Below are positions 1 through 44,990 of a stretch of DNA of 58,555 bases, piece by piece (the first letter of the stretch is position 1; each line of letters begins with the position of its first letter). The stretch covers positions 1 to 58,555 of IMG/VR virus record IMGVR_UViG_3300006793_004421, one strand, 5' to 3'. The translations under genes and the position numbers were made by a program. Below the pieces are notes generated by a model, which searched no databases, had not been told where the DNA came from, and saw only the letters and a program-made list of their open reading frames with translations. This DNA comes from a virus.

Positions 1-1617
1 TGCTAATGCGGCTAAGTCTGCATCATATGCTTGTACGTTTACGCCAATGTCTGCGTCAACTACCATAGTTGCATCGTAAGCCATTACGTCTGAACCAATA
101 GCAACACCCAATGCTGTTCTAGCATCACTTGCAGATGTACTACCTGTTCCGCCTTTAGCAACTGGAACTGTTCCTAAACTAATATCACCTGCTGAAGATA
201 ATGCAAGTGGACTTGTGGCACTAACTGCTACTGTACCTGTTGCGGCTGGCAATGTAATAGTTACATCGGCAGTACTTGCAGGACCTATTAGTGTTGCTTT
301 ATTAGTACCGTTGTTTGTTCCTTCTAAAAACTCAATCTTACCACCTGTTGTAGCAGTAGGAGATAGAGTAGGATCAGTTAAAGTTTTGTTTGTTAGTGTT
401 TGCGTTGCCGCAATACCAACAAGTGTTTCGTCACTAACCGCAGTATTAAATTCAGCAAAAGTTCCTGTTACAGTATTATCAGTTAAACTAATTGACTTGT
501 TTGTAAGTGTATCGGTTGTATCTCTACCTACTACAGTTTCATCGCTAACTGCGGTATTAAGTTCTGCTATTGTACCTGTTACTGTATTATCAGTTAAACT
601 AATTGACTTGTTTGTAAGTGTGTCTGTTGTATCTCTAGCTACTACACTTTCGTCACTAACGGCTGTATTCAATTCTGCTATGGTTGTCGTTAATGTATTG
701 TTTGCTAAGTTAACACTTTTATTAGTCAACGTATCCGTTGTAGCTTTACCTACGAACGTGTCGTTGCTATCGGGCAATGCCCAACTGTTACTTGCACTAG
801 GTTTAATAGCGGCTATGATTGGTGATGTTAAAGTTTTGTTTGTTAAAGTTTGTGAACCTACAAGTGTTGTTACAGTACTGTCTATTGCCCATTCAATAGA
901 GTCTGTTGCAGGTGTTGTTGTAATATCAATACCTGTTCCGCCTGTTAAGTTTAAAATATCTTGAATGTTGTCAGCAACAACAGGAGCTTCACCTGCTACT
1001 TGGATAGTTTTAAATACGTCTTTTGCTCCACCGTAATCAGCAGTAGCAACTCCACCACTGGTGTATGCACTAAATCCTGTGCCGTCAATTGGTGCTGTTA
1101 ATTGTCTATCTGAATACAAAGCAAATGTAGTACCAGTTAGTACGTCCATGAAGTACTCGTTACCGTTAACGTTGGTCATTCCTACAACATCAACTAGTGT
1201 TACTTCTGTACCATCTGTAAATGCGTGAGCGTTAGTTGTTGTAACTACAACAGGGCTGGCCGCTGTGATGTTGCTAATTGATTTACTAACACCACCCACC
1301 AGTGCCGCAATAGTCATCTGGTTTGCATTATCTCTAGTAATGGTCATGTTACCACCAGCAACTAAATTAATATCGTTTGAAATATTATTAACGTCAGTTA
1401 GTCTAATTGCAGTAGTTGACAATGGAACAGCTAAAGTATATTCAACATCGAACTTAAATGTGTCTGACGATAAGTCTACATTATTCCATGCAACACCATT
1501 TCCTCGTATAAAGTTAATACTATCAGTTACATTATCCGCCTCGATAGTCTGCTCAAGAGTCGTTCCATCAGGTGAATAAAGTTTAACATATCTAAAAAAA
1601 TCGTAATAAGCAGTCAT
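1..1617 (-). CDS. Tail fibre / virion structural protein, C-terminus beyond window
   Basis: The minus strand is open without a stop from an ATG at 1617 down to base 1, giving 539 residues of an incomplete protein beginning MTAYYDFFRYVKLYSP. It is rich in Thr, Asn, Ala and Gly and has repeated TLTNK(S/T)...TVTG..AELNTAVSDET units, the composition of phage fibre shafts. Near the left edge it has a 'VAKGGTG' motif common in tail fibres. An AATAAATAC late promoter lies 27 bases upstream, and AGAGGAAC before the ATG serves as ribosome site. Plus-strand open frames at 215-964 and 1265-1579 are shadows of this gene. Fibre assignment is by composition and motifs; the host receptor cannot be inferred. 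Confidence 0.85.
   Translation of the reverse strand, partial: MTAYYDFFRYVKLYSPDGTTLEQTIEADNVTDSINFIRGNGVAWNNVDLSSDTFKFDVEYTLAVPLSTTAIRLTDVNNISNDINLVAGGNMTITRDNANQMTIAALVGGVSKSISNITAASPVVVTTTNAHAFTDGTEVTLVDVVGMTNVNGNEYFMDVLTGTTFALYSDRQLTAPIDGTGFSAYTSGGVATADYGGAKDVFKTIQVAGEAPVVADNIQDILNLTGGTGIDITTTPATDSIEWAIDSTVTTLVGSQTLTNKTLTSPIIAAIKPSASNSWALPDSNDTFVGKATTDTLTNKSVNLANNTLTTTIAELNTAVSDESVVARDTTDTLTNKSISLTDNTVTGTIAELNTAVSDETVVGRDTTDTLTNKSISLTDNTVTGTFAEFNTAVSDETLVGIAATQTLTNKTLTDPTLSPTATTGGKIEFLEGTNNGTNKATLIGPASTADVTITLPAATGTVAVSATSPLALSSAGDISLGTVPVAKGGTGSTSASDARTALGVAIGSDVMAYDATMVVDADIGVNVQAYDADLAALA
370..770 (-). repeat. 111-bp tandem repeat inside fibre gene
   Basis: About three and a half copies of a 37-codon unit encode LTNKSISLTDNTVTGTIAEL and its following linker. 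The block starting at 480 recurs at 591, exactly 111 bases later, with near-identical sequence, and diverging copies flank them. Such repeats build fibre shafts and can expand or contract by recombination. Confidence 0.75.
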
Positions 1618-5959: not shown

Positions 5960-6599
5960 TAACTTTATAAAATATACAAAAATAGGTGCAGTAGCAGTCC
6001 TAGGACTAGGTCTTAGCTATGGCATTGGTACCTTTACACCCAACACATGGACTATAAATGATATAGTCGCAAAAGCAGAAGAAAATATTATAGGAGAATG
6101 GAACGAGTTTGGGTTTCATGAACCTTCAATAGAATATACAAACAATGCTCAATTTATAACTGGCGTAGCTCGTTGTATTGACTTTCTTAATTTACATACA
6201 GAAATAAGCAAACGTGTTCCACGAGATATTATTGTTGCAATGGCAATACTAGAAACAGGATATGGTAAAAGTAGATTTGCACTTGAAGGTAACAACTTAT
6301 TTGGTATACGTACATGGGACAAAAATACACCACAATTGAAACCTTTAGAGTTGCCCAATGCGGCATTTGGTGTTAAAATATATAAAACAAAGTGTGCTTC
6401 TGTAAAAGATATGATTCACACTATTAATACGCATCGTGCGTACATAGACTATAGAGATGAACGTGACAGACAAGAAGCAACAGGAGTTTTAGATATTGAT
6501 GCACAAGTAGACCAATTACACAAGTGGAGTACAAATCCAAACTACACAGCATTAGTAAAAGAAAAGATTTTAATATTACAAGGCAAACAACATGACTAA
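5946..6599 (+). CDS. Membrane-anchored Bax-like glucosaminidase
   Basis: The 217-residue product starts MKKNSNFIKYTK and has a hydrophobic segment at about residues 13-30, a signal anchor or signal-anchor-release sequence. The rest matches the Bax/flagellar-type N-acetylglucosaminidase family (PF01832): 'VPRDIIVAMAILETGYGKS' carries the catalytic Glu, followed by 'GNNLFGIRTW' and 'NPNYTALVKEKI'. It would cut peptidoglycan from the periplasmic side. The gene overlaps the previous one by 14 bases and the next by 8. A separate GH108 endolysin is encoded at 36778, so this may be an early cell-wall remodelling enzyme or a second lysin. Confidence 0.8.
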   Translation: MKKNSNFIKYTKIGAVAVLGLGLSYGIGTFTPNTWTINDIVAKAEENIIGEWNEFGFHEPSIEYTNNAQFITGVARCIDFLNLHTEISKRVPRDIIVAMAILETGYGKSRFALEGNNLFGIRTWDKNTPQLKPLELPNAAFGVKIYKTKCASVKDMIHTINTHRAYIDYRDERDRQEATGVLDIDAQVDQLHKWSTNPNYTALVKEKILILQGKQHD

Positions 6600-7611
6600 A
6601 CGTATAGGCTTCGCATGTAAGTACATGCACTCAGATCAAACGCAGAAGAAGAAACTGCTAGAAGAAATTCAACGACCACTAAATACACGCAGTACGACAG
6701 TACAATGGCTTAACAGGCAAACACGTGAAGTAGCAGAAGAACGCCTGTGGGACATTATGGTACACAACATTCAGTCGTACAGTAACTTGATCGAATACGT
6801 AGGAGGATTACCTAATGAACTTAGAATGGTTAGACTCGGTAGCGATTGCCTTCCGGTATATACGCAACAAGATTGGTCATACTTTTGGCGAAAGCCTGAC
6901 GTCCGTGATTACTGTAGTAAACATCTCGCCCCCGTCGGCGACAAAGCAAGGGCCCTCGATGTCCGACTATCGATGCACCCAGGCCAATTTACTGTACTTG
7001 CGAGCGACAACCCCGACATTGTAGATAGGAGCATAGAAGAATTTGAATATCATACCGACATCATACGCTGGATGGGATACGGCAAACAATTCCAAGACTT
7101 TAAATGCAATGTCCATATATCAGGCAGACAAGGTCCATCCGGTATCATCAATGTCCTGCCAAGACTATCTCAAGAAGCGAGAAACTGCATTACGATCGAG
7201 AACGACGAGAACTCGTGGGGGCTCGACGCATCGCTCGAACTTGAAAAACATGTCGCATTGGTTCTTGACATACACCACCACTGGGTGCGTACAGGTGAAT
7301 ACATACAGCCCACCGACGATAGATTTACTCGCGTAGTAGATAGCTGGCGTGGTGTGCGTCCTGCAATGCATTACAGCTACAGTCGTAACGAACATTTACC
7401 ACAAGACTTTGCACACGACACTATGCCCGATATGGAACAGCTACTAGAAGCAGGCCATAAGAAGCAGAAACTTAGAGCCCATAGTGACTACTATCCTAAC
7501 AAACTTGTTAATGATTGGGCATTGAGCTTCTTAGAACATTCTGACATTATGTGCGAGAGCAAGTGCAAAAACTTAGCCAGCATTGAACTATACGAACAAT
7601 ATAAAGCGTAA
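6592..7611 (+). CDS. uvdE: UV-damage endonuclease (UvdE/UVDE family)
   Basis: The 339-residue TIM-barrel protein has the family landmarks in order: MTKRIGFACKYM at the N-terminus, 'RLGSDCLPVYTQQDW', 'RLSMHPGQF', 'CITIENDENSWG', 'LVLDIHHHW' and 'LRAHSDYYPN', which supply the His/Glu/Asp metal ligands. UVDE nicks DNA 5' to UV photoproducts. The middle of the gene is far richer in GC than its surroundings (34 of 60 bases at 6901-6960 and 32 of 60 at 7201-7260), a sign of recent acquisition from another genome. A plus-strand frame at 6815 and a minus-strand frame at 7165 are shadows. Confidence 0.9.
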   Translation: MTKRIGFACKYMHSDQTQKKKLLEEIQRPLNTRSTTVQWLNRQTREVAEERLWDIMVHNIQSYSNLIEYVGGLPNELRMVRLGSDCLPVYTQQDWSYFWRKPDVRDYCSKHLAPVGDKARALDVRLSMHPGQFTVLASDNPDIVDRSIEEFEYHTDIIRWMGYGKQFQDFKCNVHISGRQGPSGIINVLPRLSQEARNCITIENDENSWGLDASLELEKHVALVLDIHHHWVRTGEYIQPTDDRFTRVVDSWRGVRPAMHYSYSRNEHLPQDFAHDTMPDMEQLLEAGHKKQKLRAHSDYYPNKLVNDWALSFLEHSDIMCESKCKNLASIELYEQYKA

Positions 7612-18437: not shown

Positions 18438-19958
18438 ATGGCTGAAAAAGAATATATTGTTTCATTACATAAGGGTGCTGATAAAAATCTAATCCTGTCT
18501 GACTTAAACAGAGATACGACTAGTGATAGTGCTATCGATAGTGCTATTGTTCCAGATAGAACTGTTAGTATTACAGATCAAAGATCTTCTAGTAAGAGAA
18601 TGTTTCATGTTACACTTACAGAAGATGAAGCTCAATCATTATTAAATCATCCAGACGTTGGCGGTGTTAACGAACCTTTAGAATGGGACGATGATTGGCT
18701 AGACTACGAACAAGAAGCAAACTGGACAAGAGATAATTCAAGTACTATAAGAACTAACTGGGGATTACGTAGACACATAGTAGAATCAAACCCGTGGGGT
18801 ACTGGTTCACAAAACGCTGACCTAGATGGTGTTTACCCATATCATTTAGATGGTACTGGTATTGACTACATACACCAAGAAAGTAAATTTAGATTTGACC
18901 ATGAACAATGGCAAGACAAAGATGGCAATAGCCGTTTACAAGAATTCCAATGGAACACACTTCCAAACATGGGTAGTATTCCTACTATTGATTATTCAAA
19001 TGTATCAGGATCAAGTTACCACGCAACGCATTGTGCAGGAATTGCTGTTGGTAAAGATTATGGCTGGGCTAAAAATGCAAACATTTATTGCTTACCTATG
19101 GACATTGTAAATAGTGCATTATGGTTTGATGCTATTAAAGAATTTCACAAAGCAAAAACACCCGACCCTGTAACAGGAGTTGTGCGTCCAACTGTAGTTG
19201 GTGCTAGTTGGGGATATAAAGCATACTTCACAAGTATGACTGCTATTCAGTTTAGAGGAGCAAACGTTGGTACTGTTAAAAGTTCGCAGTACGGAATGAT
19301 TGGAGATGGTATTAACAGATTTAATGCTAACTTATATAACTTAAATGCTGAAGTTGAAGAAATGCAAGATGAAGGTGTACACTATATGAAAAGTGCCGGT
19401 AACCAAGGACAAAAACTTTGTTACGAAGGCGATATAGACTACGATAATTATATCTTGCGTAGTGTTTCAACAGGTGGTATTTCGTCGGGTAACCCGATAT
19501 ACTATAACAGAGGTGCAGGTAATATTGGTCCTGAAACTATTGTTGTAGGTAATATTGATAGTGCATTATATTCAAACTCAGAAGCGTGTGCTACATCAAG
19601 TGATAAAGGTCCACGTGTTGATGTATACACAGCAGGTACTGACATTGTTAGTGCTACAAATACAAATTCAACAGCAGTTGCAAACTATTCAGGAACAAGT
19701 ATGTCAACACCACAAGTATCCGGAATGAGTTGTTTAGTTTTACAAGTTAATCCAGGTTGGTCTCCAGCACAGTTACGTAAGTGGTGGCAAGACAATGCAC
19801 TTAAAGAAGGTTTATATCAAGGATCAACAGACGAAAATGATGCTACTACATTCTTTGCAAACAACAGAAATTTAATGAGCCCAGATGCAACATCTAATAG
19901 AATTGCACAGTTTCCGTTTGCGGCACATTTTGGCGTAACATATAAGGACGGAGCATAG
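18438..19958 (+). CDS. Subtilisin-like (S8) protein, catalytic Asp replaced by Glu
   Basis: The 506-residue protein has an I9-like N-terminal region ('RMFHVTLTEDEAQSLLNHPDVGG') and an S8 domain. His195 in YHATHCAGIA, Asn in KSAGNQGQ and Ser421 in SGTSMSTPQVSG are intact. At the place of the catalytic Asp the sequence reads HQESKFRFDH, with E148 seven residues before the His, where its neighbour has DDGVQVDH. The DG pair after it is also lost. Activity may be weak or absent. It lies in the fibre block directly before a second subtilase and shares its layout, so the two arose by duplication. RBS GAGGAAC precedes the ATG. Confidence 0.85.
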   Translation: MAEKEYIVSLHKGADKNLILSDLNRDTTSDSAIDSAIVPDRTVSITDQRSSSKRMFHVTLTEDEAQSLLNHPDVGGVNEPLEWDDDWLDYEQEANWTRDNSSTIRTNWGLRRHIVESNPWGTGSQNADLDGVYPYHLDGTGIDYIHQESKFRFDHEQWQDKDGNSRLQEFQWNTLPNMGSIPTIDYSNVSGSSYHATHCAGIAVGKDYGWAKNANIYCLPMDIVNSALWFDAIKEFHKAKTPDPVTGVVRPTVVGASWGYKAYFTSMTAIQFRGANVGTVKSSQYGMIGDGINRFNANLYNLNAEVEEMQDEGVHYMKSAGNQGQKLCYEGDIDYDNYILRSVSTGGISSGNPIYYNRGAGNIGPETIVVGNIDSALYSNSEACATSSDKGPRVDVYTAGTDIVSATNTNSTAVANYSGTSMSTPQVSGMSCLVLQVNPGWSPAQLRKWWQDNALKEGLYQGSTDENDATTFFANNRNLMSPDATSNRIAQFPFAAHFGVTYKDGA

Positions 19959-19959
19959 T

Positions 19960-21582
19960 ATGGCTGAATATATTGTAGTTACAGAAAAAGGTATAGACGT
20001 TGCAGTAGTTGATACTGATTTACAAAGAGATACATCAACTGATGATTCTGTTAACAGTAGTCTTGTACCTGATAGAATTGTACCAGTAGTTAATGCTAGA
20101 CCTGCTAATAACAGAATGACGCATTATGATCTTACTGACGAAGAAGCCGCGGCATTATCAAATGATCCAAGAGTGCTATCAGTAGCAGGTGTTCCAGACA
20201 AAGAAACACAAGAACTGTATGCTACACAAAATGCAGAATTTCAAAGAAGTTTTACAAACGGTTCAAATAGTGTTAACTGGGGATTAGATAGACATACTGA
20301 TCCAGACTTAACTTACAATTCATCAAGCACACGTACAGCTGATTATAATTATACACTAGACGGAACAGGTATTGACATGGTTATTCAAGACGATGGTGTA
20401 CAAGTTGATCATCCTGAATGGGAAGATGCAAACGGAGTAAGTAGATTTCAACAAGTTGATTGGTATGAACTAACAGGATTAGCAGGAACAATGCCTAGTA
20501 GCTTTTATGCTAACACATCAAATGATACAAATGCCGCAGGTGCTCATGGAAGTCATTGTGCAGGAATTGCCGCAGGTAAAACATACGGTTGGGCAAAGAA
20601 TGCAAAAATTTATTCAATGAGAATCTTTGGTGGAAGTAATCATAGTATCGATACTGATCGTTATGATTTAATTAGATTATTCCACGAACAAAAACCAGTT
20701 GATCCAGATACAGGATTTAAACGTCCTACTATTGTAAATCAAAGTTGGGGGTATAGTTGGTATTATAGAAATGGTTCTTTTGGTTCTGCACAAGTACAAT
20801 CAATTTTTTATAGAGGCGTTGATCAAAGTATTGCGGCACAGCAATGGACAAGTGGAACATTTTCACAATACGGTGCAGTAGCAAGTAGACATCCAATGTC
20901 ATACACACCAGCTGATGTTGAACAAGAACAATTAACTGATGCAGGAGTAATATGTGTCAAAGCCGCAGGCAATGGATATCATCCATGTGCTGGTTCTTCC
21001 GCAGGAGAATATGCTGATACAATATATGACAGTTACTATACACTTAATGAAACATGGGCTAGTTATATTACTGCTGGTAATCCTATATACTATAATAGAC
21101 CAAGTAGTCCACATTCATTAGACACAATATGGGTTGGCAACATGGCGGCTGATCAATATGGTTCAGAAGAATTTTTAAGAGAAGATAGTGAGCGTGGTGC
21201 TAGACTAGATATCAATGCCGCAGGTGAACAAATTACAAGTGTTACAAGTGGTGCATCTACATACAGTACTAAACAAGCATACCCAGGTAATAGCAGTTAT
21301 TATATTGCAAGAATTAGTGGAACAAGTATGGCGGCTCCGCAAGTAACAGGAATGGGTGCTTTATGGTTACAAGCAAACCCAGGTGGTTCAGCGGCGGACT
21401 TTAAGAAGTTCTTAGCAAATAGTTCAAAAGAAGATTTATATGATAGCGGAAACGCTGACAGTTTTAATGCTAGTAATAACATTCCTAGATTATATGGTGG
21501 TACACGTAAAGTAGCGTACTGGCCTTATAATAGTCCAAACAACGTTAGCTACAAAGGTACTAGCGGTAGTGGACAAGGATAA
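19960..21582 (+). CDS. Subtilisin-like (S8) serine protease with intact triad
   Basis: The 540-residue protein has an I9-like propeptide region ('RMTHYDLTDEEAAALSNDP') and then the S8 fold. Asp144 (QDDGVQVDH), His196 (AHGSHCAGIAAG) and Ser456 (SGTSMAAPQVTG) form the triad, and Asn of KAAGNGYH the oxyanion hole. It begins one base after the upstream subtilase stop. The location among fibre genes under late control suggests a virion-associated protease acting on host surface proteins or on fibre maturation. No signal peptide is seen. Confidence 0.9.
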   Translation: MAEYIVVTEKGIDVAVVDTDLQRDTSTDDSVNSSLVPDRIVPVVNARPANNRMTHYDLTDEEAAALSNDPRVLSVAGVPDKETQELYATQNAEFQRSFTNGSNSVNWGLDRHTDPDLTYNSSSTRTADYNYTLDGTGIDMVIQDDGVQVDHPEWEDANGVSRFQQVDWYELTGLAGTMPSSFYANTSNDTNAAGAHGSHCAGIAAGKTYGWAKNAKIYSMRIFGGSNHSIDTDRYDLIRLFHEQKPVDPDTGFKRPTIVNQSWGYSWYYRNGSFGSAQVQSIFYRGVDQSIAAQQWTSGTFSQYGAVASRHPMSYTPADVEQEQLTDAGVICVKAAGNGYHPCAGSSAGEYADTIYDSYYTLNETWASYITAGNPIYYNRPSSPHSLDTIWVGNMAADQYGSEEFLREDSERGARLDINAAGEQITSVTSGASTYSTKQAYPGNSSYYIARISGTSMAAPQVTGMGALWLQANPGGSAADFKKFLANSSKEDLYDSGNADSFNASNNIPRLYGGTRKVAYWPYNSPNNVSYKGTSGSGQG

Positions 21583-36777: not shown

Positions 36778-37287
36778 ATGCAAGAAAATTACGATAAGTG
36801 TTTAGAGACAATTTTACACCACGAAGGTGGATATGTAAATCACCCTAGCGACCCAGGTGGGGAAACAAATATGGGTGTTACTAAAAAAGTTTATGTAGCG
36901 TTCGGCGGAACTAAGGATATGAAAGACTTAGAATTCGACGATGTTGCACCTATCTACAGAAAAAACTACTGGGATAGAATGAAGTGCGATAACGTACCAG
37001 CAGGGTTAGACCTATGTTTATTTGACTTTGGTGTTAACGCAGGTACAGGTAGAAGTGCTAAATTTTTACAACGTATGATTGGAACTACTGCTGATGGCGG
37101 TATTGGACCAAACACACTTAAAAAATTAGCTGACTACATTGATACGCATGGACTTGAAGAAACCATTAAAGAGTTCCAAGAAGATCGTCAAGACTATTAT
37201 GAAAAACTATCTACGTTTAAAACGTTTGGTAGAGGTTGGACACGTAGAGTAGACGAAACAACGGAACTTGCATTGTCAATGGTATGA
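36778..37287 (+). CDS. GH108 endolysin (N-acetylmuramidase)
   Basis: The 169-residue product has the GH108 signature 'HHEGGYVNHPSDPGGETNMG' with catalytic Glu16, then 'YWDRMKCDNVPAGLDLCLFD' and, in the C-terminal half, 'GTTADGGIGPNTLKKL' of the peptidoglycan-binding type-3 region. It has no signal peptide, so it needs a holin or other membrane breach. It is followed by spanin genes, completing a lysis cassette. Confidence 0.88.
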   Translation: MQENYDKCLETILHHEGGYVNHPSDPGGETNMGVTKKVYVAFGGTKDMKDLEFDDVAPIYRKNYWDRMKCDNVPAGLDLCLFDFGVNAGTGRSAKFLQRMIGTTADGGIGPNTLKKLADYIDTHGLEETIKEFQEDRQDYYEKLSTFKTFGRGWTRRVDETTELALSMV

Positions 37288-37424
37288 GCCAGTACTGCCA
37301 AAACTGCGGAAGACAGCACGAAGGTAGACTAATTGAAACGTTTACAGACGGTGATAACAAACCAGTACAAGTTATCGTCTGTGAACAACATAGATATGAG
37401 GTGAAAGATGATAGGGTCGATTAA
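37284..37424 (+). CDS. Tiny zinc-finger-like protein, 46 aa
   Basis: An ATGA overlap links this frame to the endolysin gene. The product (MSQYCQNCGRQHEGRLIETF...) has C5-x2-C8, then H12 and C33/H36, enough for a small zinc knuckle. It ends 17 bases inside the i-spanin gene. Tight coupling at both ends and the cysteine pattern support it, although it is very short. Confidence 0.55.
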   Translation: MSQYCQNCGRQHEGRLIETFTDGDNKPVQVIVCEQHRYEVKDDRVD

Positions 37425-37893
37425 AATTGCAATAGTAATTATTATGATGGCCGGTGCCGGTGGCGGTGTTATGTATGTAAAAACACTAAAGTCTGACTTG
37501 GCTACATCAGAAGCAAACAATTTAAAGTTAGAACAAAGCGTTGAGGATCAAAAGGCAGTAATTGCACAAGCACAAGCTGACTTTGAATCACAAAAGAAAA
37601 TTACAGCTAACTTAGATGCACAAAACAAAGCACTACAAGCCGAGTTTCAAGCATTAGATAAACGCTTTAATAAAATTAACGGTCGAGGTGAAGTACGTGA
37701 CATTGGCAAACTTGCAGATGAACGTCCTAAATCAGTTGAACGTGTTATTAACGGTGCGACAGTAAAGGCAATGAGATGTGTAGAAATTGCTATGGGGTCG
37801 CCATTAACGGAGAAAGAGAAAAATGCTACTAAAAAGTCTGAAATCAACTCAGAGTGTCCTAGTATTGCTAATCCTAAGTACGTTCCTTATTAG
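37408..37893 (+). CDS. Inner-membrane spanin-like protein (Rz type)
   Basis: The 161-residue protein has a single N-terminal hydrophobic segment ('IKIAIVIIMMAGAGGGVMYV') followed by a long coiled coil ('LKLEQSVEDQKAVIAQAQAD' and onward to about residue 90) and a periplasmic C-terminus with two cysteines. Placed after the endolysin and with an out-of-frame lipoprotein gene overlapping its 3' end, it has the layout of an i-spanin. Confidence 0.75.
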   Translation: MIGSIKIAIVIIMMAGAGGGVMYVKTLKSDLATSEANNLKLEQSVEDQKAVIAQAQADFESQKKITANLDAQNKALQAEFQALDKRFNKINGRGEVRDIGKLADERPKSVERVINGATVKAMRCVEIAMGSPLTEKEKNATKKSEINSECPSIANPKYVPY

Positions 37894-38212
37894 TGGATGT
37901 AGTTCTGTTAAGCAACTAGAGATTTTTAAAACAGAAGTTCCTAGAGAACCTCTTGCGTTGCCTGAACCGTTAACTCCAAAACTAGAAGAACTCAAATGGA
38001 CTATCATTACTAGCGAAAACGCTGATGAAGTATTTGAAAAACTTAAAGCGGGTGGAGTAGATCCTGTGTTATTTGGATTAACAGATGACGGCTACGAAGC
38101 TCTAAGTAAAAACTTTGCACAAATACGTGCATACATGCTACAGCAAGACGAAATTATTAAATCTTATAAAGAGTATTACGAGTCTACAGACAAGAGTAAA
38201 CCTAAGAAGTAA
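37823..38212 (+). CDS. Outer-membrane spanin-like lipoprotein (Rz1 type)
   Basis: The 129-residue product has a lipoprotein signal: 'VLVLLILSTFLISGC' with lipobox LISGC at Cys26, followed by a Pro-rich segment (VPREPLALPEPLTPK) as in Rz1 proteins and a helical C-terminus. The gene starts inside the i-spanin frame (71-base overlap), preceded by GGAGAAAGAG. Rz/Rz1 pairs fuse inner and outer membranes at lysis. Confidence 0.75.
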   Translation: MLLKSLKSTQSVLVLLILSTFLISGCSSVKQLEIFKTEVPREPLALPEPLTPKLEELKWTIITSENADEVFEKLKAGGVDPVLFGLTDDGYEALSKNFAQIRAYMLQQDEIIKSYKEYYESTDKSKPKK

Positions 38213-38398: not shown

Positions 38399-38686
38399 AT
38401 GATTGAAATGATAGAACGCATGGCTAGTGATAGACTATGGATATATACCGCACTTGCCGGCAGTATATTTGGGGCATTATTCATTGCATACATGAGAGAT
38501 ACACGTATTGCACTATGGGTATTCGGCAAATGGGACACACTTTTAGACAGTTTACGAGATCGCTTTGGTTGGACATGGTTTAACCAAGATCCAGATGCGT
38601 GGAAAAAGGTAAACCCAAACATTGCTCGTAAGATTGACGAGCTCGAATCACGTATAAAAACTTTAGAAACTAAAAGGAAAAAATAA
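38399..38686 (+). CDS. Single-pass membrane protein with coiled-coil tail, 95 aa
   Basis: After a short polar N-terminus the segment 'LWIYTALAGSIFGALFIAYM' forms one transmembrane helix, followed by an aromatic stretch ('WVFGKWDTLLDSLRDRFGWT') and a charged helix ending 'IDELESRIKTLETKRKK'. Next to the lysis genes it could be a holin or pinholin candidate, but no family is recognised. It overlaps the next gene by one base. Confidence 0.65.
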   Translation: MIEMIERMASDRLWIYTALAGSIFGALFIAYMRDTRIALWVFGKWDTLLDSLRDRFGWTWFNQDPDAWKKVNPNIARKIDELESRIKTLETKRKK

Positions 38687-40479
38687 TGTCAGCACAGGAT
38701 GATAAGAACAGAGCAGAAGCCCAGAAGCGTGATGCTCAAAATCAAATAAACCAACATAACTCAGAAAAAGCTAAAGCAGAAAATCAAAAGAAATCTGCAC
38801 AACAAGAAGCAAACACAGCAAACACAAACAAAACACACGCACAAGAAGAACAAAAGACTGCACAACAGCAACAACAGGCGGCTGAAGCGGCACATGATCA
38901 AGCAATTAAAGATCATGACGATGCTCTTGCAAAACAAAAAGAAGCAGATGATAATTATGCGGCGGCACAGGCACAAGTTGCACAAGCTGAAGCAATGGTA
39001 CAAGATGTATCAAGACCACAATACTCAATTCAAGTTGCTGACCACGCTGAAACATCAGTTGGTGAAACAGTAGGCGACGAACATGCAGGTGCTAGTTATG
39101 AAGCTGGTGCAAGTGCAAGTTATGACGCAAGTGCAAGTGCAGGTTATGAAGTAACTGACCACAGCGTTGCAGTTGGTGCTGAAGCAAGTGTACACGCAGA
39201 AGCAAGTGCAAATGCAGGTGCTGAAGCTCACGCTGAACAAGAAATTGTTCCAGGTGTAGATGCACACGCTGACGCAAGTGCTGAAGCAGAAGGTAAAGTA
39301 AGTGCAGATGCAGAAGCACACGCAAAAGCAAGTGGCGGTTGGGACGGCAGTGATGCAACAGCGGCGGCAACAGTAGGTGCAAGTGCAAGTGCAGATGCAA
39401 CAGCAACAGGATCAGTAGATGGTAGTGTTGGTGTTGATACACCCTTAGGTGATGTTAGTGTTGATGCAGGTGCAGAAGGTACAGCAGGTGCTCACGCTGA
39501 AGCATATGCAGAAGCAGGTGGACATGCAAGTGTTGGAGAACATGGAGTTGACGTAGGCGGTGGTGCTATTGCAGGTGCTAACGTTGGAGTTGATGCTGAA
39601 GGTTCAGCACACATAGGCGGCGCTGAAGTAAGTGGCGGTGCTGGTGCAAGTATTGGCGGACAAATTGGTGCTCAAGGTTCTGCACACGCTACATACGAAG
39701 ATGATACAATCTCGTTTGGTATTGATGGACAAGCGGCTTTGCTAGTTGGACTAGATGTTGATGTGAATGTTGACATTGATATTGGACCACTAGTAGACGG
39801 TGCTAACGCTATTCTAAATGCAGGTGGAACAATGGACGAAGCATTGAACCATGTAACTGATGGAATTGATCAAGCACAAGCAGAAGCAATGAAAGTTGCA
39901 AACCAAGCACAAGCGGTTGCTAAACAAGGCGAAAAAGTTGCAAAACAAACTGTAGATGCATGTAACTCGGCAGTAAGTGCTACCGAAGATGCAATTAACC
40001 AAACTGGTCAAGCAATGACTGATGCGGCTAATGCAGTTGCACATTGGGGTAACGAAGTAGGTAAGTGGACTACAAGCGTATTTAATGCTAATAACGCTGT
40101 TAAAGCGGCTAACAGCACTATTAACGCATGTAACAGCGCCATTAATGCATGTAACAACACTATTAATCAAGCAAATAATGCCATTAATAGTGCAACAAAA
40201 GCTATCAATGATGCGGCTAATGCAGTTTCTAATACAGCTAAAAAGGGTTGGAAGAGTGTTAAGAAATTCTTTTCAGACTCACGCTTAAAAGAAAACGTTG
40301 AATTTGCAGGCAAAGTCAACGGTATTAACACTTACACATATAATTATGTGTGGAATAATGCAGTACAAACAGGTGTAATGGCACAAGAGCTATTAGAAAC
40401 TAAGTATGCAGATGCAGTTGATACACACCCATCAGGGTATTATACAGTTAACTACAGTAAGTTACCTACTATAAACTAA
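38686..40479 (+). CDS. Ala-rich fibre with C-terminal S74 autochaperone
   Basis: The 597-residue protein starts with a Gln/Lys/Asn coiled coil (to about residue 105), then a long Ala/Gly/Ser/Asp repeat region of alternating small and polar residues ('AGASASYDASASAGYEV', 'AEAHAKASGG'), then Asn-rich heptads, and ends with an S74 intramolecular chaperone. The self-cleaving dyad is S530 and K535 in FSDSRLKENV, and 'GVMAQELLETKYADAV' follows. Cleavage before S530 would release a ~68-residue chaperone from a trimeric fibre. It lies outside the main fibre block, beside lysis genes, under the promoter at 38366. Two minus-strand His/Leu- and Cys-rich frames are shadows. Confidence 0.8.
   Translation: MSAQDDKNRAEAQKRDAQNQINQHNSEKAKAENQKKSAQQEANTANTNKTHAQEEQKTAQQQQQAAEAAHDQAIKDHDDALAKQKEADDNYAAAQAQVAQAEAMVQDVSRPQYSIQVADHAETSVGETVGDEHAGASYEAGASASYDASASAGYEVTDHSVAVGAEASVHAEASANAGAEAHAEQEIVPGVDAHADASAEAEGKVSADAEAHAKASGGWDGSDATAAATVGASASADATATGSVDGSVGVDTPLGDVSVDAGAEGTAGAHAEAYAEAGGHASVGEHGVDVGGGAIAGANVGVDAEGSAHIGGAEVSGGAGASIGGQIGAQGSAHATYEDDTISFGIDGQAALLVGLDVDVNVDIDIGPLVDGANAILNAGGTMDEALNHVTDGIDQAQAEAMKVANQAQAVAKQGEKVAKQTVDACNSAVSATEDAINQTGQAMTDAANAVAHWGNEVGKWTTSVFNANNAVKAANSTINACNSAINACNNTINQANNAINSATKAINDAANAVSNTAKKGWKSVKKFFSDSRLKENVEFAGKVNGINTYTYNYVWNNAVQTGVMAQELLETKYADAVDTHPSGYYTVNYSKLPTIN
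40120..40224 (+). repeat. Five 21-bp repeats encoding heptads
   Basis: Five consecutive 21-base units each start ATTAA or ATCAA and encode INxxxx(A/T): INACNSA, INACNNT, INQANNA, INSATKA, INDAANA. The register is exact, giving a trimeric-coil neck just before the S74 chaperone. Confidence 0.8.
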
Positions 40480-40559: not shown

Positions 40560-41000
40560 ATGAACCCTTTTGATCAATTTGGAATGGATCTAACAGATGT
40601 GTTAGCCCCATGGATAGCGATACTAATTAGTATCTCAGCGGCCTTTTGGTTTAAGGACTTTGCACATAATTTAATGAGCGGACTAAAGTTCAAAATGAAT
40701 CCTGCGTTTAATGAAGGCGATCATATTATACTAGATGACACTGATGCTATCATAGTTAAAATAGGGTTGCGTGAAAGTGTGTTTGGAGTTTACGGTGATC
40801 GTGGTTATACTTGGAGATATATTCCAAATGATCGTATTAAGTTTCACAAGTTAGAAAAAGTTATCAATAAAAATCTACACTTGGATTCTGAGGCTGAAAA
40901 AGGTAGACGCTTACAAGAAATGATTGATCAAGCACAGAGTGCTCAGATTAAGAATAACAAAGATAACATAGAGAAAATTAAAAATGGAAAAAGAGATTAA
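40560..41000 (+). CDS. Minimal MscS-like membrane protein, 146 aa
   Basis: One hydrophobic helix ('VLAPWIAILISISAAFWF') is followed by a segment that tracks the MscS pore end and beta domain: 'DFAHNLMSGLKFKMNPAF', NEGDHIILDD, then IPNDRI as in bacterial MscS ('GxxxxxxxPFxxGDxI...IPNxxI'). The C-terminal 40 residues are a charged helix. E. coli MscS has 286 residues and three helices, so this is a stripped-down version. It might gate or disturb membrane tension at lysis, but no function is proven. The start overlaps no other gene; it overlaps the next by 17 bases. Confidence 0.65.
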   Translation: MNPFDQFGMDLTDVLAPWIAILISISAAFWFKDFAHNLMSGLKFKMNPAFNEGDHIILDDTDAIIVKIGLRESVFGVYGDRGYTWRYIPNDRIKFHKLEKVINKNLHLDSEAEKGRRLQEMIDQAQSAQIKNNKDNIEKIKNGKRD

Positions 41001-41328
41001 AGAAATCAAAACTGATACCGAAGTGAAAGAAGATACTGCGGTAAAGAAAGTTAAATTCGAACTAGAAGTAGATACTAATGTAGTTGATAGTGGTAAGAAC
41101 CCTTATATGCATCTTATCTTTTTAGCAAGGGCTGTAGATGCATGGAGAATTTTTCCAAGAATCTTTTTATCAGTTTACATCTACTTACTGTATGATGTTA
41201 CAACATGGTTTATGAACTTACCAGAACCTAACTTAGAGCAATCGGGTTTGGTTAGTATTGTCGTTGGTGCAGGGGCGGCTTGGTTTGGTTTATATGCAGG
41301 TACTTCTAAGAAGAATCCAGACAAATAG
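40984..41328 (+). CDS. Membrane protein with two helices, 114 aa
   Basis: The charged N-terminal 40 residues are followed by 'FPRIFLSVYIYLLYDVTTWF', a short MNLPEPNLEQSG loop and 'LVSIVVGAGAAWFGLYAGTS', the typical look of a conserved T4-like marine phage membrane protein. A holin-like role is possible, since it lies near the lysis cassette and pairs with the MscS-like gene. I cannot assign it. Confidence 0.6.
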   Translation: MEKEIKEIKTDTEVKEDTAVKKVKFELEVDTNVVDSGKNPYMHLIFLARAVDAWRIFPRIFLSVYIYLLYDVTTWFMNLPEPNLEQSGLVSIVVGAGAAWFGLYAGTSKKNPDK

Positions 41329-41366: not shown

Positions 41367-42215
41367 ATGGATTATTACGAACTTTTAGGCGTTCCAAGAA
41401 ACGCTACAGAATCAGATCTTAAGAAAGCATACAAGAAACAAAGTATGCAACACCACCCTGACCGCAATGGTGGAAGTGATGCTAAGTTCAAACAAATTAA
41501 TGAGGCATACTCAGCACTAAAGGATCCACAGAAAAGGCAAATGTATGACCAATATGGTACTGCTGATCCTCAACAAGCACAGGCACAACAGCAGAGTCAT
41601 TTTTCAAATTCTTTTGGTGGTGCTAATTTTGAAGATATATTTGGACAAATGTTTGGAGGACAACCAAACATGCGTAGACAAATGCATAATCAAGATATAA
41701 CTATTGCCGCAGATATTGATTTGGAAGATATCGTAAAAGGTAAAGATGTTATTGCTACATATAGGCTACCAAGTGGCAGAGAAGAAACAGTAGAGATTAA
41801 ACTTCCACGTGGTTGTAGACCAGGAGATAGGATACGTTATTCGGGTATGGGTAGCGACTTACACCCACATGCTCCAAGAGGTGATTTGCACGTTCAGTTG
41901 CGAGTCAGAAGACACCCCGAGTACACTCAAGATGGCATAAATTTATATATAGACAAGAAGTTAAATTTATTTGATTTCGTTTTAGGCACAAACTTAACTA
42001 TCAAAACAATCCACGATCGTACATTGAGTGTTAATGTACCAGCTGGATCTAACCCAGGCACAGTTTTTAGTATTGGAGGTCAAGGTTTACCTGACAGACG
42101 TTCAGGACAAACGGGCAACTTATACATTAAAGTATTAGGTGTAACACCTAAAATAAACGATGAGAAAATTAGAGAACAGTTAAGAAGAATACAAGATGAA
42201 ACTAAAACTACTTAG
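41367..42215 (+). CDS. J-domain co-chaperone (CbpA/DnaJ type II)
   Basis: The 282-residue product has an N-terminal J domain with HPD at 30-32, a short Gly/Phe-Gln region ('FSNSFGGANFEDIFGQMFGG') and the C-terminal beta domains ('GRPGDRIRYSG'-like, 'PAGSNPGTVFSIGGQGLP'). The cysteine zinc-finger repeats of type I DnaJ are absent, so it is CbpA-like. It would steer host DnaK. It overlaps the deformylase gene by 20 bases. Confidence 0.88.
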   Translation: MDYYELLGVPRNATESDLKKAYKKQSMQHHPDRNGGSDAKFKQINEAYSALKDPQKRQMYDQYGTADPQQAQAQQQSHFSNSFGGANFEDIFGQMFGGQPNMRRQMHNQDITIAADIDLEDIVKGKDVIATYRLPSGREETVEIKLPRGCRPGDRIRYSGMGSDLHPHAPRGDLHVQLRVRRHPEYTQDGINLYIDKKLNLFDFVLGTNLTIKTIHDRTLSVNVPAGSNPGTVFSIGGQGLPDRRSGQTGNLYIKVLGVTPKINDEKIREQLRRIQDETKTT

Positions 42216-42723
42216 ATACCCAGATCCATTTTTAAACAAAAAGGTTGCACCTTTTGACTTTGATAAGCATGATGCTAAACAAATCGAAGCTGAGATGATT
42301 GAACTAATGACTAAAGAAAATGGTGTAGGATTAGCGGCAACACAAGTTGGTCTTGATGCACAAATATTCATTATCAAACCAGAAGGATTAGAAGGGTACG
42401 AAGACAATAAACCTTTCGCATTAATTAATCCTGTGATTACAGCCGTAAGTCAAGAAACTGTACTAGGTGAAGAAGGTTGTTTAAGTTTTCCATTATTGTT
42501 CTTTAAAGTTAAAAGACCAACAGGAATGGTAATAGAGTGTCTTGACTCTAGCGGTAAAGAGTGTACAATAGAGTTAGTAGGTTGGAATGCAAGAATTGCA
42601 GGACATGAATACGATCACTTATATGGAATCAACTATGTTGATCGTGTAAGTAAATTAAAACTCGACATTGCTAAGAAAAAGCAATCAAAATTATTAAAAA
42701 GATTTGGAGCCTATATAAAATAA
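42196..42723 (+). CDS. def: Peptide deformylase
   Basis: The 175-residue product has the three deformylase motifs: GVGLAATQ at 43-50, EEGCLS with metal ligand C95, and HEYDH at 137-141 with H137 and H141 as ligands and E138 catalytic. It removes the N-terminal formyl group from new proteins. Phage deformylases of this type are known in marine T4-like viruses. It shares an operon with DnaJ-like and ClpA-like genes. Confidence 0.9.
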   Translation: MKLKLLRYPDPFLNKKVAPFDFDKHDAKQIEAEMIELMTKENGVGLAATQVGLDAQIFIIKPEGLEGYEDNKPFALINPVITAVSQETVLGEEGCLSFPLLFFKVKRPTGMVIECLDSSGKECTIELVGWNARIAGHEYDHLYGINYVDRVSKLKLDIAKKKQSKLLKRFGAYIK

Positions 42724-44990
42724 TGGTAGAACCTAGCGAAAATTTACAGAAAATATTTGACAAAGCATTAGATGTAACTAAGAAACTTAATCACGAATAT
42801 CTTACACTAGAGCATTTGTTATTTTCAATGTTGTGCGAAGAAGACTTTTCAAACATTGTATCAGGATTCAATCAAGTAGATCCAGAATTCATGAAAAAGA
42901 ATGTTGAGAACTTTCTTAAAACAAAGTGCAACGACTTGTTAATGACTGACATTGAAAATCTTCCTAAGAAATGGAAGCCTAAGAAAACACAGGCAGTAGA
43001 ACGTGTACTAAACAGAGCGTTTACACAAGTGTTGTTTAGTGGTCGTAACAGTATTGAAGTTACTGATGTGTTCTTAAGTATGTTTAACGAAAAGAAAAGC
43101 TGGGCATTATACTTTATTAACGAAGTAGGTATTGAAAAAGAAAAGTTTGCAGACTATCTAAACAATGAGCTAGAAGCAAATTACGAAGATGAAGAAATGC
43201 AAGGCATGGCTAATCGTGCATTGCGTTCGTTTACAACTAATCTTAACGTTGATGCAGAAACAGGTAAGATTGATCCTGTTATTGGACGCTCAGAGGAACT
43301 TGAAAACATTGCACTAGCAATAGGACGTAGACAAAAGAACAACGTACTACTAGTTGGTGAACCAGGTGTAGGTAAAACTGCTATTGCAGAAGGACTTGCA
43401 TACAATATTGTACAAGGTAACTGTCCTGAATTCCTTAAAGAATATAACGTATACAATTTAGACATTGGTAGTATGTTAGCAGGTAGTAAGTACAGAGGTG
43501 ACTTTGAAGAAAGATTTAAATTAGTTATTGCTGGCCTTAAGAAGAAAGGCAAAACTATTATGTTCATTGACGAAGCACACATGATTAGTGGTGCAGGTGC
43601 AGGCGGACAAGGTCAATCAAACGACTTAGCTAATATGTTAAAGCCTATTCTAACAAAAGGTAATATTAAAGTTGTAGCAAGTACTACATGGGAAGAATAT
43701 AGAAAGTTCTTTGAAAAAGATCGTGCATTGATGCGTAGATTTGCTCGTGTAAGTGTTGACGAACCTAGCAACGAAATTACTAGAGATATCTTACAAGGTA
43801 TTAAAAAGTATTACGAAGAATTTCATAAAGTATCTATCACAGACGAAGCTATTGATACTGCAATTAAACTTAGTGTGAAGTATCAAACAGATAAGAAGTT
43901 ACCTGACAAAGCTATTGACTTACTAGATGTAGCATGTTCAAGATTTAAACTTAAAGAAGAACCAAACAAAACAGTTGGTATGAAAGAAGTACAGTTTGAA
44001 CTTGCTAAGATGGTTAACATGCCTAAAGAACAAATTATGGAAACTGAAACTAGCAACCTTGCTAACTTAAACCATAATATGAAAGCTGAGATTTACGGAC
44101 AAGACGAATCAATTGATAGTATTGTTGATAAGATTCACGTAGCACAAGCAGGACTTAAAGCAGATAACAAACCAATTGGTTCATTTGTGTTTATGGGACC
44201 AACAGGTGTAGGTAAAACTGAAACAGCAAAACAACTTGCAAAACAATTAGGTGTAAAACTAATTAGATTTGACATGTCGGAGTATCAAGAGAAACATAGT
44301 GTTGCTAAACTAATTGGTTCACCTCCAGGATATGTAGGCTTTGAAGAAAATAGTGGCTTACTAATTACTAAAGTACAAGAGAATCCAAACTGTGTATTAC
44401 TACTTGATGAAATTGAGAAGTCACACCCAGATGTAAGTTCATTATTGTTACAAATTATGGACAACGGATTTGTTACAGGTAGTAACGGTAAGACTGCTGA
44501 CTGTAGAAACGTTGTACTAATTCTTACAACTAACTTAGGAGCCGCAGAAGCTGAAACTAATGCAGTAGGCTTTGGCGAGATGGAAAAAGATCACGATGAT
44601 GGTGAGCTTAAAAAGTTCTTTGCTCCAGAGTTTAGAAATAGACTAGATGGTATTATGACATTTGGTAAACTAGACAAGAACACAATGATTAAAATTGTTG
44701 GTAAGTTCTTAGTTGATCTTAAAGTTATGTTAACTGACAAAGGCGTTGAAACTACTATATCAGACGAAGCTATTGACTTCTTAATTGATAAAGGATTTGA
44801 TAGCAAGATGGGTGCAAGACCACTGCAACGTGTCATCGATAATGATATTAAAACTCCGTTGTCTAAAGTATTATTGTTTGGTGATCTTAAAAATGGTGGT
44901 ACACTACATATTAATGTTAAAGATGGTGCATTTGATTTACAAACAGTAAAGAGTAAATCCAAGGAGCCAGAAACCGTTGATCAAAATTGA
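42723..44990 (+). CDS. clpA: ClpA-like AAA+ unfoldase
   Basis: The 755-residue protein has the full ClpA layout: a Clp_N repeat domain (to ~150), D1 with Walker A GEPGVGKTAIAEGLA near residue 210 and 'TIMFIDEAHMI', and D2 with Walker A GPTGVGKTETAKQL near 490 and 'CVLLLDEIEKSHPDV'. There is no ClpB-type middle domain, and the length is close to E. coli ClpA (758). The loop that docks on ClpP reads V615-G-F where ClpA has IGL. No phage ClpP is in the window, so it may use host ClpP. Confidence 0.92.
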   Translation: MVEPSENLQKIFDKALDVTKKLNHEYLTLEHLLFSMLCEEDFSNIVSGFNQVDPEFMKKNVENFLKTKCNDLLMTDIENLPKKWKPKKTQAVERVLNRAFTQVLFSGRNSIEVTDVFLSMFNEKKSWALYFINEVGIEKEKFADYLNNELEANYEDEEMQGMANRALRSFTTNLNVDAETGKIDPVIGRSEELENIALAIGRRQKNNVLLVGEPGVGKTAIAEGLAYNIVQGNCPEFLKEYNVYNLDIGSMLAGSKYRGDFEERFKLVIAGLKKKGKTIMFIDEAHMISGAGAGGQGQSNDLANMLKPILTKGNIKVVASTTWEEYRKFFEKDRALMRRFARVSVDEPSNEITRDILQGIKKYYEEFHKVSITDEAIDTAIKLSVKYQTDKKLPDKAIDLLDVACSRFKLKEEPNKTVGMKEVQFELAKMVNMPKEQIMETETSNLANLNHNMKAEIYGQDESIDSIVDKIHVAQAGLKADNKPIGSFVFMGPTGVGKTETAKQLAKQLGVKLIRFDMSEYQEKHSVAKLIGSPPGYVGFEENSGLLITKVQENPNCVLLLDEIEKSHPDVSSLLLQIMDNGFVTGSNGKTADCRNVVLILTTNLGAAEAETNAVGFGEMEKDHDDGELKKFFAPEFRNRLDGIMTFGKLDKNTMIKIVGKFLVDLKVMLTDKGVETTISDEAIDFLIDKGFDSKMGARPLQRVIDNDIKTPLSKVLLFGDLKNGGTLHINVKDGAFDLQTVKSKSKEPETVDQN

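Follow-up and report, generated by a model that had tools for sequence, protein, structure and literature searches.

A single-helix MscS-like core protein encoded by marine phages

IMG/VR record IMGVR_UViG_3300006793_004421, a 58,555-nucleotide stretch of DNA referred to here as the window, derives from a marine T4-like phage and encodes a 146-residue protein reminiscent of the mechanosensitive channel MscS. This raises the question of whether the protein truly belongs to the MscS superfamily and, if so, what a channel protein with a single transmembrane (TM) helix might do during infection. A preliminary description of the sequence had proposed that one TM helix is combined with the MscS pore and beta-domain pattern, that the protein is mechanosensitive-channel-like, and that it could help gate lysis. 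The open reading frame, the three motifs on which that description relied (FAHNLMSGL, PAFNEGDHIIL, and IPNDRI, all present in the translation), and an AlphaFold model agree with the first of these proposals.

Scanned as a single sequence, the protein matched PF00924 with an E value of 0.0085 and 16.6 bits, below the curated cut-off of 20.2, and a six-frame search of the record raised this only to 17.4 bits. We regard this miss as a matter of the sensitivity threshold rather than as a structural feature. Neither PHROGs nor NCBIfam supplied a usable family (the NCBIfam MscS match, at E 0.005, was far below its cut-off), and no holin family in Pfam, PHROGs, or NCBIfam matched the protein. When we searched PDB sequences with phmmer, the MscS of 3udc/3t9n ranked first (E 0.014) and was collinear over residues 6-114, and 14 of 30 aligned relatives matched PF00924 at E <= 0.1, the best at 1e-4. 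We then used hhalign to compare a profile of 94 distinct relatives with the aligned cores of Escherichia coli MscS, MscK, YnaI, YbiO, and YbdG. Against the MscS core, the family reached a probability of 96.3% and a score of 57.1 over 90 collinear columns (phage residues 3-97), compared to scores of at most 21.0 across 60 column-shuffled profiles and 15.9 for the reversed profile.

The predicted structure points the same way. An AlphaFold2 model built from a 30-row alignment (mean predicted local distance difference test score, pLDDT, of 82; predicted template modeling score, pTM, of 0.50) places a single helix at residues 3-46, strands at 55-89, and a C-terminal helix at 111-142. All of the top 50 Foldseek matches of this model in the PDB were MscS family members (E from 3e-4), and VIA-align gave MscS chains Z scores of up to 9.3 across residues 11-102. 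Since unrelated small beta barrels, including a tudor domain, score as high as Z 7.2, the fold evidence taken alone is moderate. Those barrel scores and the sub-threshold Pfam match are what one would cite for a coincidental resemblance, such as might arise wherever a small beta barrel follows a TM helix, but the gap between the hhalign score and its controls and the dominance of MscS entries among the best structural matches make such a coincidence very improbable. Jointly, the profile match and the predicted fold are convincing for an MscS relationship, and we hold homology to the MscS core to be highly probable. The preliminary description called for a significant PF00924 match or an MscS-like fold; the predicted fold and the profile-profile comparison bear this out, although the single-sequence match stays below the Pfam cut-off. 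The homology is secure, and it is the role in infection that we infer. In single-sequence scans, the members that we examined either stay under the curated cut-offs or lack a PHROG, so the family is likely to remain "hypothetical" in annotations.

What remains of MscS in this protein is limited. It has only one membrane helix, its N terminus begins at the level of TM2/TM3, and it lacks both the TM1-TM2 tension-sensing paddle and the C-terminal alpha/beta cage with its side portals, in place of which stands a helix of about 30 residues. These absences set it apart from the canonical MscS channels, and the label "mechanosensitive" is unsupported as stated because the paddle is missing. By its modeled architecture, the protein is a minimal MscS, in which TM3 and the beta domain are all that is kept. 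The charges flanking the helix (means of -2.6 before and +2.4 after it across 94 sequences) fit a predicted N-out/C-in orientation, as in MscS. Conserved positions in the family alignments include K32-D33 near the TM3 kink, G41 (which aligns with G121 of E. coli MscS), the E52-G53-D54 turn, IPN, VFGxY, GY(T/V)W, N90, K100, H107, and D109. Within the C-terminal helix lies a near-invariant I130-N133-I137 pattern that has a coiled-coil look as judged by eye. Most members keep this region, but the L071-L080 branch has a truncated version or none at all, and the helix is therefore not essential to the family.

Several known proteins provide points of comparison. MscS2 of the microsporidian Nematocida displodere consists of TMH3 and the beta domain only and forms heptamers (PMC11262690); it and the phage protein both keep just a TMH3-like helix and the beta domain, a likeness of architecture alone, although MscS2 belongs to a eukaryotic parasite. 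TcMscS of Trypanosoma cruzi is a miniature mechanosensitive channel with TM2, TM3, the beta domain, and an N helix but no cage (PMC12334622). Its TM3 and beta core (9bgq/9bgu) aligns with the phage model over 94 residues (Z 8.2, root mean square deviation 6.0-6.1 A), and the phage protein is smaller still, without TM2 or the N helix. In E. coli MscS, YnaI, MscK, YbiO, and YbdG, the TM3 and beta core is collinear with the phage protein over about 90 residues, yet these proteins carry the TM1-TM2 paddle (and more) and the C-terminal cage, both of which the phage protein lacks. Among viruses, gp51 of Paraglaciecola Antarctic GD virus 1 (PANV1) matches MscS 6RLD in HHpred and has a single TM helix, weakly predicted (PMC9239159), and so resembles our protein as a phage MscS-like protein with one TM, a comparison made by description only. 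Large eukaryotic DNA viruses have likewise been listed as encoding MscS or MscL relatives (PMC6163359); one of these, a larger Aureococcus virus protein (261 residues, three predicted TMs), turned up in our fold search. A viral MscL has been reported from estuarine viromes (PMC13288924). These three reports were all that we found on phage MscS in the open-access literature, and none describes this family. Since phage MscS-like proteins such as PANV1 gp51 have already been reported, we consider the family a fresh variant and not one without precedent.

The family is widespread. A peptide-pattern search returned 111 relatives and an alignment-based search at least 544 viral-contig stretches encoding them, so that several hundred or more contigs of uncultivated phages carry the gene. 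In tblastn searches with four members against 50,697 named phage records, we found no credible relative, with three chance matches (E 6-8) in one search. Carriers in the bacterial genome collection amounted to three contigs only. In L082-L084, the MscS-like gene neighbors a gene transfer agent (GTA)-type holin or a phage-type version of TM114, the gene that follows it in the window, which suggests phage contigs or prophages; we therefore rejected these as host genes, as they seem to be prophages or phage sequence that was sorted into bacterial metagenome-assembled genomes. Each of 25 contigs or records that we checked contained a single MscS-like gene. The median ratio of nonsynonymous to synonymous substitution rates was about 0.10 (NG86, 77 close pairs, which are not independent), and the gene is under purifying selection. 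As for full-size channels, "phage" matches to E. coli MscS or YnaI mostly look like bacterial or prophage contigs, and Microcystis phage MaAM05 encodes one possible full-size MscS relative.

The surroundings of the gene in the window (Table 1) offer a first indication of function. The window encodes a DNA polymerase with matches in large T4-type phages, the best being Sinorhizobium phage Phosso at 51%. Genes for a GH108 endolysin and an Rz/Rz1 pair sit about 2.3-3.8 kb upstream, and the start of TM114 overlaps the 3' end of the MscS-like gene, with the two reading frames overlapping. Phages of the window's lineage consistently show the gene order GH108-Rz-Rz1-...-MscS-TM114-DnaJ. None of the databases that we used names TM114 as a holin, its sole match being to phrog_10198, but TM114 adjoins a lysozyme in Roseobacter phage CRP-406, lies near an M15 peptidase in CRP-6, and in contig G008 has an Rz-like gene about 0.5 kb away, so that a holin role for it is plausible. 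More broadly, phrog_10198 is a two-helix protein of Vibrio, Roseobacter, and Pelagibacter phages that sometimes adjoins lysis genes (for example in CRP-406, VH7D, and Mosig; L173, L174, and L172), and we consider it a candidate unannotated holin family. We also considered TM114 as a split TM1-TM2 paddle on account of its predicted hairpin, and did not adopt this view, as the gene is distant in several contigs and was not found in 13 of 25.

Table 1. Positions of the MscS-like gene, its parts, and nearby genes in the window
Feature	Position	Strand	Remarks
GH108 endolysin	36778..37287	+	Family match
Rz-like inner-membrane spanin	37408..37893	+	phrog_739, 1e-11
Rz1-like lipoprotein spanin	37823..38212	+	phrog_812, 5e-11
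Conserved 95-aa protein	38399..38686	+	No family match; in many related contigs, homologues precede the MscS-like gene
Minimal MscS-like gene	40560..41000	+	ATG start, 146 aa
TM3-like helix	aa ~3-46		Predicted
MscS-type beta domain	aa ~50-100		Predicted
C-terminal helix/possible coiled coil	aa ~111-142		Predicted
Stretch matching the start of PF00924	40662..40775	+	TM3b and first beta strands; sub-threshold Pfam match
TM114	40984..41328	+	114 aa, predicted helical hairpin (42-78, 84-108); phrog_10198 (unknown function); candidate holin

The explanation that we favor, tentatively as a whole, is that the protein acts late in infection as a ring-forming leak or relief pore of the inner membrane. 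It comprises the MscS-superfamily core, namely the pore-lining TM3 and the ring-forming beta domain, plus a C-terminal helix. By analogy with its homologues and with MscS2, it probably assembles into an oligomeric ring, which by homology would be a heptamer seated in the host inner membrane, with the beta domain in the cytoplasm, enclosing a narrow hydrophobic pore. Late in infection, this small pore could pass ions or osmolytes and so adjust turgor and membrane potential, before the holin, endolysin, and spanin system ended the infection. The context for a late or lysis-related role comes from the upstream endolysin, Rz, and Rz1 genes and downstream TM114 in the window, and from a GTA-type holin or tail and baseplate genes elsewhere.

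To assess how general this context is, we examined 119 distinct contigs, from which duplicates had been removed via a hand-made list; the lysis-neighbor counts sought only homologues of the window's lysis genes, so unrelated lysis genes would be missed. TM114 lay within 300 bp of the MscS-like gene in 46 contigs, and 42 had a homologue of Rz, Rz1, or GH108 from the window no more than 4.5 kb away. One clade (L137/L152/L153) instead has TM114 upstream of the MscS-like gene. In L078, L080, and L083, the next gene downstream encodes a GTA-type holin (PF11351, E 4e-16 and 4e-11), and in L058, L061, and L141 the MscS-like gene sits beside tail, baseplate, or terminase-type genes. Among contigs of at least 110 kb, six of nine encode TM114, in four cases away from the MscS-like gene; in G005, G008, G009, and G019, the two genes are about 9 kb to more than 100 kb apart.

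Several points weigh against our favored explanation. Only 50 of the 119 contigs have either type of lysis neighbor (TM114, or Rz/Rz1/GH108). The late timing, like the role in turgor or membrane potential, is read from gene position only. TcMscS, the mechanosensitive precedent, keeps the TM2 and N helix that the TM3-only phage form lacks. Finally, the pore-constriction residues (F/L/I29 and the mostly conserved W30) appear bulkier than their E. coli MscS counterparts and may leave the pore closed or non-conducting, and conductance of the phage protein is something that we infer. Given the lysis-neighbor counts and the differing contexts in other clades, we conclude that the lysis neighborhood is recurrent but not general. 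The placement next to lysis genes therefore holds in the window and some other lineages, while most contigs have no detected lysis neighbor.

An MscS-like ring might instead act as a lysis regulator or pinholin-like trigger, depolarizing the membrane or binding TM114 and thereby setting lysis time. This is the alternative that we take most seriously, although we think it unlikely. It would account for the overlap and recurrent adjacency with TM114, in either gene order, for TM114's own association with lysozyme and Rz-like genes, and for the GTA-type holin in L078/L080/L083. Yet adjacency to TM114 is missing in most lineages, the two genes can be far apart, and TM114 is itself only a candidate holin. 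Moreover, on inspection by eye, the GH108 endolysin shows no obvious export signal at its N terminus; it would therefore need a large hole, which an MscS-sized pore is unlikely to provide. For this reason, and because many related phages have no lysis gene found alongside, the proposal that the protein gates lysis is not supported as stated.

Two further alternatives seem improbable to us. A protein that retains the subunit-interface core (TM3 and beta domain) and has lost the remainder could join or cap host MscS-type channels and change their gating during infection, but the family-specific conservation of VFGxY and GY(T/V)W suggests a family that assembles with itself. A non-conducting ring could also exclude superinfecting phages by blocking incoming DNA, or could anchor a partner via its C-terminal helix. 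The bulky pore-face residues and the presence of the C-terminal region in most members are consistent with this, and a nonconducting function is claimed for the MscS relative MSL10 (PMC6261518). That region is shortened, though, in the L071-L080 branch, and a SieB match in one member is at chance level only.

Other features of these loci deserve mention in their own right. A lipase-like gene (cluster 11, phrog_21992 esterase/lipase) occurs near the MscS-like gene in 38 loci, a count in which the same contigs recur, and lies downstream of it in L033, L043, and L050, for example. In the window, positions 38686-40479 encode a 597-residue protein that is rich in Ala, Ser, and Gly, has an S74 endosialidase-type chaperone domain at its C-terminal end, and went undetected in many related contigs. 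After TM114, DnaJ, a peptide deformylase, and a ClpA-like ATPase follow consecutively (41367-44990); Phosso has this trio as well, there preceded by an Rz/Rz1-like pair. We rejected the positional equivalents upstream of Phosso DnaJ as MscS relatives, since by eye they look like Rz/Rz1-type proteins. Elsewhere, an adjacent pair of subtilisin-like proteases (S8-type by eye; 506 and 540 residues) occupies 18438-21582, and an open reading frame at 6592-7611 resembles, by eye, a UV-damage endonuclease (UvdE-type).

In its boldest form, our proposal is that a large marine phage family uses a single-helix, paddle-free MscS core, joined in some lineages by a two-TM partner, as a dedicated late-infection pore that sets the osmotic or electrical state of the infected cell, and hence lysis time. 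We consider this rather doubtful, but if true, it would represent a distinct device for lysis control or osmotic management. MscS gating is usually explained by the TM1-TM2 paddle, and this conserved phage family, with its pore helix and beta ring only, offers a natural minimal construct for probing the capabilities of the isolated core. It also prompts the question of whether host turgor or membrane potential comes under phage control ahead of lysis.
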